From Gammaproteobacteria bacterium (GTDB taxonomy: Bacteria; Pseudomonadota; Gammaproteobacteria; Chromatiales; Chromatiaceae): 10,519 nucleotides of DNA. The stretch lies in the NCBI GenBank assembly GCA_030594925.1, contig JAUVEG010000027.1, forward strand, positions 1-10,519, given 5' to 3'. How positions within the stretch are numbered: the first letter of the stretch is position 1; each line of letters starts with the position of its first letter. The notes under the pieces were generated by a model. That model saw only the letters and a list, made by a program, of their open reading frames with translations, ran no database searches and was not told the DNA's origin. Of this stretch, positions 3 through 6,847 are shown piece after piece. A program made the position numbers and the translations under genes.

Positions 3-425
3 GCCGAGCATCTGCTGGGGCATGGCGACATGCTCTATCTGCCGCCTGGAAGCAGTATTCCCCAGCGGCTGCATGGAGCCTTCGTGGATGATCACGAGGT
101 GCATAATGTGGTCGAGTTCCTGAAACAAAATGGTACTGCAAACTATGTCGGTGAGATTCTTCAGGAGCCTTCCGAGGCCATTCCGGGGCTGTCGCCAGAG
201 GCCTCGGGGGTTGATCTGGAAGATAGTGATCCGCTGTTTGACGAAGCCGTGCAGATCGTTACCGATACACGCCGCGCCTCCATCTCGGGAGTGCAGCGCC
301 GTCTCAAAATCGGTTATAACCGGGCAGCGCGTATGGTCGAGGAGATGGAGCGCATCGGCATCGTCTCTCCGCCTGAAACCAATGGTTCCAGAACCGTGCT
401 GGCTCCACCGCCTGTCGAGGTTTGA
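3..425 (+). CDS. ftsK: DNA translocase FtsK, C-terminal part (5' end outside window)
   Basis: FtsK is the septal DNA pump that moves the chromosome terminus toward the division site and activates XerCD recombination at dif. The 140 visible residues are the end of the motor domain and the whole gamma domain. GDMLY followed by [18 protein letters not shown] (about visible residues 8-36) is the conserved end of the RecA-like motor. After a short acidic linker, DPLFDEAV through SISGVQRR and [13 protein letters not shown] to LAPPP (about residues 76-137) is the winged-helix gamma domain that reads KOPS sequences and contacts XerD. I aligned this by memory to the E. coli C-terminus and it matches closely to the last residues. 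The gene enters from the left edge, so no start is visible. The next gene, lolA, follows at once, as in E. coli. Confidence 0.96.
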
Positions 426-429
426 TTGC

Positions 430-1155
430 ATGCCTATTTCACAAGCGAGACCAACTCTCAGACTGACGAGGCATGAAAGAGATTATTTTTCTCTCGCCAA
501 GACGCAAAGACCGCAAAGGTTTTTCTTGGCGAGCTTCGCGTCTTGGCGAGAGCTATTACTCATTTTATTGATATCACTGCTGTCCCTGTTTTCAGCACCG
601 CTGCATGCGACAGCGCTGGACAGCTTTCTCTCCGGATTGAAGACTATGCAGGCGGACTTTGTGCAGAGTGTCGAGTCGCAGGGAGGCAGTCAATATGCAA
701 CACAAAATGGCATTTTTTATCTCAAGCGTCCGGGTAAATTTCGCTGGGATTATGCCGGCAAGGATGCGCAATTGATTGTTGCTGACGGCAGGACGGTGTG
801 GTTGCTGGATCGCGATCTCGAACAGGTTTCGCACCAGCCGCAAAAAATGGCGCTGCGCGGCACGCCTGCCCAGCTGTTGTCACAGGGAGAGAAGGTTGAC
901 AAACATTTCACCATTCTGCGTCAATATAAACGTGATGGAATGGAGTGGATGGCGCTTGCTCCCGTTGACAAAGATAGCCAGGTTGAGGAGGTGCATGTTG
1001 CTTTTCGTGACAACAAGCTTTTGAAACTGGAGATGACAGACAAGCTCGGCCAGCATACCAGGTTTAGCTTCAGCAACGTGAAGCGTAATCCTGTTCTCAG
1101 CAAAAGCCTGTTTAAATTCAAGGCGCCCCCCGGTTTCGATGTCTGGGAACACTGA
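430..1155 (+). CDS. lolA: Outer-membrane lipoprotein carrier protein LolA (start uncertain)
   Basis: LolA is the periplasmic chaperone that takes lipoproteins from the LolCDE transporter to LolB at the outer membrane. The mature part (from about TALDSFL, near nt 610) shows the family pattern: MQADFVQ, GIFYLKRPGKFRWDY, LIVADGRTVWLLDRDLEQV, a PAQLLS stretch and the C-terminal FKAPPGFDV. Mature length of about 181 residues is normal. The start is unclear. ATG 430 (GAGG at 417-420) gives 241 residues with about 45 charged residues before the hydrophobic core LLLILLISLLSLF. TTG 526 (AAGG at 516-519) gives 209 residues with a normal signal peptide cleaved after LHA. TTG 526 lies inside a 62-bp palindrome that seems to interrupt the original start region. 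The gene sits between ftsK and rarA, as in E. coli, and its last 17 nt overlap rarA. Function is secure; only the N-terminus is open. Confidence 0.9.
   Translation: MPISQARPTLRLTRHERDYFSLAKTQRPQRFFLASFASWRELLLILLISLLSLFSAPLHATALDSFLSGLKTMQADFVQSVESQGGSQYATQNGIFYLKRPGKFRWDYAGKDAQLIVADGRTVWLLDRDLEQVSHQPQKMALRGTPAQLLSQGEKVDKHFTILRQYKRDGMEWMALAPVDKDSQVEEVHVAFRDNKLLKLEMTDKLGQHTRFSFSNVKRNPVLSKSLFKFKAPPGFDVWEH
491..552. repeat. 62-bp palindromic repeat inside the lolA signal-peptide region
   Basis: CTCTCGCCAAGACGC (491-505) is perfectly complementary to GCGTCTTGGCGAGAG (538-552). Pairing continues with gaps to a GCAAAG/CTTCGC step. A second CTTGGCGAG at 525-533 repeats the right arm. The type (CCAAGACGCAAAG...) resembles dispersed palindromic repeats I recall from intergenic regions of many bacteria, but copy number here cannot be tested. 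It contributes codons to any lolA start upstream of 553. In mRNA it would fold into a strong hairpin with TTG 526 in the loop. Confidence 0.8.
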
Positions 1156-4055: not shown

Positions 4056-4313
4056 GCAACAGATACACAGGCTGTTATTGATCAATACAAGCGTTCCGAG
4101 GGTGACACCGGTTCCCCGGAGGTTCAGGTGGCGCTGCTCACTTCACGCATCACCTACCTGACGGAACACTTCAAAACCCACAAAAAAGACCACCACTCAC
4201 GACGTGGCCTGGTCCACATGGTTAACTCCCGCCGCAAGTTGCTCGACTACCTGAAGAAAAAGGATCTGCAGCGTTACAGCGACCTTATTTCAAGTCTTGG
4301 CCTGCGCCGCTAA
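4044..4313 (+). CDS. rpsO: Small ribosomal subunit protein S15 (uS15)
   Basis: S15 binds 16S rRNA early in 30S assembly and helps form an intersubunit bridge. The 89 residues equal the E. coli length. Conserved blocks are visible: [14 protein letters not shown] (residues 20-33), [12 protein letters not shown] (44-55), [12 protein letters not shown] (63-74) and the C-terminal LGLRR. ATG 4044 is chosen over upstream codons because it gives the family N-terminus and has GGAG at 4033-4036, seven bases away. The open frame extends upstream to 3957, but that part is leader. pnp follows, the usual partner in Gammaproteobacteria, but the spacer holds a 160-bp palindromic repeat. The leader shows pairing that could hide the start codon, described separately. 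Confidence 0.98.
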
Positions 4314-4316
4314 CTA

Positions 4317-4476
4317 AGGAGCTGACCAATAATAACTTCCCGATTCTGCTTGCCCTGTTGTCCCTCTTCTGCGTTGCAGCAAGAGTTACATAACACTGCT
4401 ATGCGCCCCTTGCTGCGCCTTGAATACGAACAACATTGCTGCGCATTATCCGGGAAGTTATTAATGGACAACTCCT
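4317..4476. repeat. Palindromic repeat copy A, between rpsO and pnp
   Basis: The ends are inverted repeats: 4317-4342 matches the reverse complement of 4451-4476 at 23 of 26 positions (AGGAG.TG.CCA.TAATAACTTCCCG). An inner pair GCAGCAA (4376-4382)/TTGCTGC (4410-4416) adds a second stem. A clearly related copy lies at 6663-6821 in the same orientation. It begins 4 bases after the rpsO stop and ends 37 bases before the pnp GTG. It supplies the leader codons that falsely extend the pnp frame upstream. Confidence 0.85.
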
Positions 4477-6662: not shown

Positions 6663-6821
6663 AGGAGGTGTCCAAAAATAACTTACCGATCCTGCTTGCC
6701 CTGTTGTTCGTCTTCAGCGTTGCAGCAAAAATTACATAACCCTGCTATGCACTTCTTGCTACGCCTTGAATACGAACGATATTGCTGTGCGATATCGGCA
6801 ACTTATTTCTGGACAACTCCT
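6663..6821. repeat. Palindromic repeat copy B, after the pnp terminator
   Basis: This is a second copy of the element at 4317-4476, in direct orientation, with long shared stretches such as CTGCTTGCCCTGTTG, GCGTTGCAGCAA and GCCTTGAATACGAAC. Its ends pair: 6663-6690 matches the reverse complement of 6794-6821 at 24 of 28 positions. Length is 159 bp against 160 for copy A. No coding sequence is supported; the open frame across it on the minus strand is only repeat DNA. Confidence 0.85.
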
Positions 6822-6847
6822 TAGTGGCAGGTTCGACTTCCCATCGG

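Follow-up and report, generated by a model that had tools for sequence, protein, structure and literature searches.

A small mobile palindromic repeat lies in frame within the signal-peptide codons of lolA and three other genes of an uncultured gammaproteobacterial genus

We analysed a window of 10,519 nucleotides, contig C169 of the metagenome-assembled genome G000 (1.78 Mb in 330 contigs, with 72% completeness). Gene order is ftsK, then lolA, then a rarA-like gene, and an insert spanning about 442-562 lies in frame inside the signal peptide of lolA (Table 1). G000 belongs to a set of six genomes (G000-G005), all incomplete, of one uncultured gammaproteobacterial genus. G001 (JADWMH01 Sva-25), G003 (DAOUQU01 CSMAG_134) and G004 (JAUXDV01 CSMAG_2860) are all Gammaproteobacteria MAGs, and G002 corresponds to JAQYVP01, Chromatiales bacterium SG_15_bin39. 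A second lolA contig is present in G000 (C11, L039). It is close to G004:C81 (L011, L042), with 13 differences in 720 bases, and identical to it around the lolA insert; given this contig, close to the G004 species, the G000 bin seems to be mixed. The window also carries a second, unrelated MITE-like repeat, in two copies (4313-4476 and 6663-6825) that flank a long ORF looking by eye like pnp. These copies are 85% alike over 134 bp, and the first has 26-nt inverted ends that are 88% complementary.

Table 1. Features of the lolA locus, in positions of the window.
Feature	Position	Strand	Basis
GAGG, likely ribosome-binding site of lolA	417..420	+	within the last ftsK codons, 9 nt before ATG 430
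lolA ORF, 241 codons, with repeat-encoded n-region	430..1155	+	TIGR00547, 202.5 bits against a cutoff of 112; PF03548
ATG, ancestral start of lolA and probably still in use	430..432	+	uninterrupted homologues, G004, G000 C11, P0003
CAAG, degenerate left tetranucleotide (likely target)	442..445	+	CTAG in G004 and C11
Left arm of the mobile repeat, ATG 473 included	442..490	+	aligned copies
Central palindrome of the mobile repeat	491..552	+	arm complementarity, dispersed copies, RNA fold
Right-end remnant (ATTACTCA beside consensus ATTACTAG)	553..562	+	by eye against the consensus end GGATTACTAG and P0003
Hydrophobic stretch and cleavage region native to the LolA signal peptide (ILLISLLSLFSAPLHA)	562..609	+	alignment with P0004, P0005, P0008-P0013

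The 62-bp palindrome in the lolA signal region, noticed in a first-pass annotation of the window, is real: its 28-nt arms are 86% complementary and their outer 15 bp pair perfectly. The predicted RNA fold of 442-562 has an energy of -46.4 kcal/mol (z = -5.2), a stability equalled by 0 of 200 shuffled sequences. Chance does not explain the palindrome, since it belongs to a dispersed repeat. A search of its own genome with 480-562 as query gave 71 matches at E <= 0.001 (the best 40 of 133 candidates were scored), many of them being both strands of one copy. Matches were obtained in 9 of 38 genomes, comprising G000, relatives and other members of the class, and the repeat is multi-copy in five of the six genus genomes. 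G005, of the same genus, had no match at the nucleotide or peptide level; matches to the repeat peptide sum to 423 over the other five (several per copy are possible) and to 0 in G005. Two genomes of other genera, G006 and G036, share mainly the central palindrome, which has different flanks there (L057, L065 and L072 in G006; L058, L066 and L073 in G036), as if the palindrome behaved like an exchangeable module across genera.

Alignment of the copies delimits a conserved unit of ~161 bp, larger than the palindrome, with a 48-bp left arm whose consensus contains GGCATGAAAGAGATTATTTT and a right arm of ~50 bp. Among 100 unique full copies in the loci collected, the insert measures 158-163 bp in 60, 206-210 bp in 22 and other lengths in 18; in 62 of them the length cannot be divided by 3. 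This set consists of full copies; those with one arm or diverged arms, including the copies of the M16 peptidase gene described below, were left out. The 206-210 bp copies carry a nested unit of ~48 bp. This unit (CTTCCGCG..TACATCCATGTAGG) recurs within many palindromes in both orientations (L012, L049, L050, L052, L193, L196, L299) and may be a repeat within the repeat. The window copy matches consensus positions 3-116 at 95% identity over 444-558 and appears to have lost ~44 bp of its right arm.

The outer boundaries, examined at 66 left and 50 right ends, are sharp: conservation ends at CTAG-type tetranucleotides. Of the 100 full copies, 54 have CTAG on the left, 52 on the right and 33 on both sides; the two tetranucleotides are identical in 36. 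Alleles with the repeat (hereafter filled) show a tetranucleotide at each side of the insert, and those lacking it (empty) show a single one of the YTRG type (CTAT in the nirF-like gene of G003). The two sides differ in the signal-peptide alleles (CTAG or CGAG/CTGG; TTGG or CTGG/CTAG; CTAG, TTAG or CTAA/CCAG). Since the side tetranucleotides are not identical, duplication of a 4-bp target is likely rather than proved, and a tetranucleotide borne by the element would give the same picture. When the consensus ends were compared by eye for terminal inverted repeats, CTAG alone was evident. A 5-bp CTATT duplication spotted by eye around the lolA insert was discarded, as G001 and G004 lack it and it disagrees with the CTAG-type boundaries.

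The repeat is thus dispersed, multi-copy, within the 70-300 bp range and devoid of a coding gene of its own, as expected of a MITE. PF13546, which we take to be the IS701-type transposase and which was the sole family searched, gave no match in the six genus genomes, themselves incomplete (control positive in 2/14). Rfam gave no match to the repeat at gathering scores, a literature query with sequence words of the palindrome led to one unrelated satellite-DNA paper, and the repeat peptide of P0003, used as protein query, retrieved itself alone among 12 candidates.

We then compared lolA among relatives. Fifteen LolA sequences were aligned out of 594 homologues (the best 120 of the 594 were listed), the 13 best database matches being P0001-P0013. 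The insert is present and in frame in P0001, P0002 and P0003; in the last, which begins MRIFLARQ.., the right arm (..QGLL) is retained and is followed by ILLISLLSTPLHA. P0006 seems to be a partial case of smaller size, and P0007 agrees with the lolA of G003, called from an internal Met. The other eight (P0004, P0005, P0008-P0013), at least 73% identical in the alignment, are uninterrupted; they are known as called proteins alone, and a repeat in their leaders is possible. In the genus, lolA is filled in G000, G001, G003 and G004 and empty in G005. The palindrome of the G003 allele contains two nested units (+96 bp) with the frame kept. G002 is uninformative because lolA was not found there, nor was the rarA orthologue. 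The LolA protein tree mixes filled alleles with empty ones, although its support is weak; this pattern suggests losses, recombination or repeated insertion at one site.

Seven of the eight uninterrupted homologues start with M-R and the eighth with MSMRR. In the uninterrupted lolA of G005, ATG lies 5 nt after the ftsK stop; GAGG precedes the ATG CGA by 10 nt, and a further ATG is found two codons earlier. The position of ATG 430 reads GTG, then CGT, in G004 and in G000 C11. By this comparison the ancestral start of lolA is ATG 430, which is probably also the present one. The first-pass annotation had instead proposed ATG 473. As it described, this codon reads MKEIIF up to 490, out of the lolA frame, and its reading frame stops after 32 codons. 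However, ATG 473 is part of the insert, because the repeat unit extends to the left and includes GGCATGAAAGAGATTATTTT; as a codon of the repeat consensus, it is ruled out as the ancestral start. Insertion into the signal and start region of lolA holds, but not with 491-552 as its limits, the element extending well left of 491. Removal of 491-552, supposed to restore a clean signal peptide, joins MKEIIF to LLLILL.. by arithmetic, a coincidence. Empty relatives start at another codon, matching ATG 430, an outcome which the annotation had itself named as contrary to its view. Its statement that translation must now begin at 430 or within the repeat is supported, TTG 526 being indeed in the lolA frame. 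Of the two consequences it offered, a replacement start agrees less well with the data than an N-terminal extension beginning at ATG 430, although TTG 526 may serve as a second start.

Open frames were scanned across repeat copies, and orthologues were then sought by homology, regardless of frame, in the six genus genomes. In-frame copies were found inside the signal peptides of two more genes and, in reverse orientation, of an M16 peptidase gene. The first, called nirF-like on our own reading, encodes a PF02239 cytochrome d1-type domain; the second, gene B, encodes a secreted protein of uncertain family with sub-threshold matches to TolB and DPPIV_N (beta-propeller). The nirF-like gene is filled in G000 (C202, and C231 cut by the contig end), G001 and G002, and empty in G003 (MKRLISLLLLFFTMAAAHAQ) and G004; it was not found in G005. 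Gene B is filled in G000 and G002 and empty in G001 and G004, and was not found in G003 or G005. A further filled gene B protein, P0122, exists in the database; with the query locus itself it made up the matches of the gene B protein query (2 of 319 candidates). The M16 gene is filled in G000 (cut by the contig end), G001 and G002, and empty in G004, where one CTAG marks the site. It was not found in G003; G005 has an M16 homologue, whose N-terminus falls outside the filled/empty comparison. The upstream gene ends within the left tetranucleotide of the M16 insert, and its stop codon is intact in all three filled alleles. With lolA, these make at least four firm genes among the matches listed, a lower bound.

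L309 (G002:C209) is a candidate fifth case: a secreted protein, CAP-like by eye, with a truncated reversed repeat copy in its n-region and no empty allele seen. Other leads were set aside. Long ORFs across copies L192 and L197 had no Pfam match and were taken as chance; the ORF at L261 had one sub-threshold match, downstream of the repeat; and at L189 and several others the repeat lies in the leader, outside the signal peptide. Leader copies just upstream of apparent starts (L064, L110, L191, L308, L310, L311, L189) belong to genes that look by eye glgC-, skp- and lptE-like, and could influence how the mRNA folds or how stable it is.

We count 13 distinct filled DNA alleles (four nirF-like, two gene B, three M16 and four lolA, G000 C11 being counted with G004). 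In every one the frame runs open and unshifted between the native start and the hydrophobic region; two of them (nirF-like C231 and M16 of G000) meet a contig end at a later point. Each retains the upstream start, which is ATG in 12 and GTG in lolA of G004. A less biased count, omitting the allele that led to each gene, is 9/9, and no out-of-frame filled orthologue emerged when the six genus genomes were searched by homology. Of 94 copies outside these signal peptides, 12 were open in the same phase, compared with 6/6 in signal peptides, a comparison biased by the fact that the genes were found partly via their open frame.

Length changes between orthologous filled alleles were counted as distinct lengths per gene minus one (nirF-like 2, lolA 2, M16 1, gene B none). 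They are multiples of 3 in 5/5 cases in signal peptides and in 1/9 at orthologous sites elsewhere that differ in length (Fisher one-sided p = 0.003). This count depends on the in-frame count, since alleles sharing one frame necessarily differ by multiples of 3. The control sites came from the loci collected, where 94 of the 100 unique full copies had enough flank, and their position outside genes was judged by crossing ORFs alone. The insertion events compared number four. In lolA of G004, changes of -2 and -1 cancel to -3. In the M16 genes of G000 and G002, the nested units are read in different frames and both come back in frame.

Selection was estimated separately for the N-terminal part, made up of the first native codons and the repeat, and for the mature part; the pairs are few and related, and the values are descriptive. 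N-terminal dN/dS lies between 0.57 and 1.15 in 15 of 16 pairs and is 0.29 in one. By gene, it is 0.66-0.79 for the nirF-like gene (6 pairs), 0.85 for gene B (1 pair), 0.29-1.15 for lolA (6 pairs) and 0.66-1.11 for M16 (3 pairs). The mature parts give 0.03-0.23, with 0.03-0.10 for LolA indicating strong constraint. Frame and openness are thus maintained while the amino acids drift, the N-terminal part evolving almost neutrally. Eight of the 13 N-termini were examined for composition: they have a net charge of +4 to +14 and no long hydrophobic stretch, the maximum 15-residue mean hydropathy being 0.60-0.85 in seven and 1.61 in M16 of G002. Such a composition would suit the n-region of a signal peptide. 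Across the 13 alleles, 43-81 residues precede the hydrophobic region.

In lolA of G000, G001 and G003 the repeat part has a dS of 0.07, compared with 0.37-0.47 for the synonymous sites of the gene. Neutral evolution alone is insufficient here because the repeat part is more alike than synonymous sites. Some orthologous copies elsewhere are likewise more alike than their own flanks. Homogenisation among copies or transfer between species are possible sources of this similarity.

From these sequence comparisons we consider it quite probable that the mobile repeat is a translated, disposable insertion into the n-region in lolA and the three other genes. The sequences themselves establish the insertion and its limits, the existence of empty alleles, the retained frame and the almost neutral drift of the insert. 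A small non-autonomous element (~161 bp, with a CTAG-type target) entered the signal-peptide codons of lolA in an ancestor. Ribosomes would initiate at the original ATG 430, traverse the repeat in frame and reach the untouched hydrophobic region, giving a LolA with a basic, non-hydrophobic n-region of ~44 residues instead of ~5. Through the Sec machinery and signal peptidase, the peptide encoded by the repeat would then be lost along with the signal peptide, cleavage being predicted after 609, and mature LolA would be unchanged. The same course is proposed for the nirF-like gene, gene B and the M16 peptidase gene. The recurrence in four genes would arise because an n-region tolerates nearly any insert provided that frame and openness are kept, and the cell would presumably be indifferent to the extension.

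The main rival is internal initiation, in which the repeat provides a replacement start (TTG 526 in lolA, an internal ATG elsewhere) and the upstream part is an untranslated leader. TTG 526 is in frame, has AAAGG 6 nt upstream and opens a conventional-looking signal peptide. A late in-frame ATG occurs in the repeat in 3/4 nirF-like and 1/2 gene B alleles, and several copies sit in leaders just upstream of apparent starts (L064, L110, L191, L308, L311). Against this, the repeat has no in-frame ATG in nirF-like G000 C231, in gene B of G000 or in any of the four lolA alleles, the native upstream start persists in 13/13 alleles, and an internal start gives no reason for the upstream frame and openness to survive length changes. 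We therefore judge this reading unlikely overall. It is less well excluded for M16, because all three alleles have an early in-frame ATG in the reversed repeat (LQM); a late one (EKM) is present in two.

Ribosome bypassing, for which the byp elements of yeast mitochondria are a case, or removal of the hairpin at the RNA level would leave the repeat in the gene and absent from the protein. The hairpin is very stable, and removal of the palindrome happens to yield a good signal peptide. That signal peptide, however, uses the repeat-derived MKEIIF, and a bypassed insert need be neither in frame nor stop-free, whereas the 13 filled alleles are both. Because frame would not be required, we give this explanation very little credence. 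Least probable of all is an assembly or binning artefact or a decaying pseudogene: G000 is indeed fragmented (330 contigs), incomplete and possessed of a second lolA contig near G004, but the same site is filled in JADWMH01 Sva-25, DAOUQU01 CSMAG_134 and JAUXDV01 CSMAG_2860 (the two CSMAG genomes may share a project), and mature LolA is strongly constrained.

Translated repeats within genes have precedents. Rickettsia palindromic elements (RPE) were reportedly described by Ogata in 2000. RPE are palindromic repeats translated within Rickettsia genes (PMC2229807, PMC2759123, PMC3733652), and Gmk is active with its RPE insert (PMC2229807). The repeat studied here resembles them in being a short palindromic mobile repeat that occupies protein-coding genes in frame and is presumably translated with them: in four genes and 13 alleles it is in frame and stop-free, and uninterrupted homologues exist. 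It differs by its host lineage and by the location of the four firm cases, all inside signal peptides; the likeness lies in the way the elements work. The enterobacterial RU-1/ERIC and RU-2/YPAL, MITE-like repeats of 100-170 bp with open frames (Delihas 2007, PMC2759123), are similar in size and in their open reading frames. RU form a fusion in a small putative protein, whereas the present repeat lies in conserved genes for secreted proteins, has empty orthologues and keeps frame across species. REP/BIME and GTAG- and CGTC-tagged repeats are palindromic, of high copy number, mostly intergenic and sometimes intragenic (PMC3733652). The present repeat shares these traits, but it is longer (~161 bp) and has CTAG-type tetranucleotides at both ends, which sets it apart from a CGTC-tagged REP (a stem-loop of 20-40 bp with the tag at one end). 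The same paper cautions that REP cases at gene N-termini may be misannotation (PMC3733652), a caution addressed here because frames were compared between filled alleles. A literature search, mostly without subscription papers, did not find recurrent frame-conserved residence of a repeat in signal peptides of conserved genes among the matches listed. In-gene translated repeats are known (RPE, RUs), and what the present cases add is the repeated in-frame occupation of signal peptides.

A further reading, possible but rather doubtful in our estimation, would make signal peptides a refuge. The repeat would be suited to being read in either orientation as a basic, non-hydrophobic peptide extending the n-region, signal peptidase would act as an excision at the protein level that hides the insertion from selection, and the family would be partly shaped by this niche.

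lolA is generally essential in gammaproteobacteria. With the three other genes, it offers several natural cases in which a mobile repeat is accepted inside genes, apparently because the inserted peptide is discarded. They show to what length a signal-peptide n-region may extend in nature (43-81 residues before the hydrophobic region), and they are a warning for gene callers, the filled lolA of P0007 having been called from an internal Met. Pairs of empty and filled alleles allow the cost of the insert to be measured, and the survival of protein-coding repeats within genes becomes a directly testable question.
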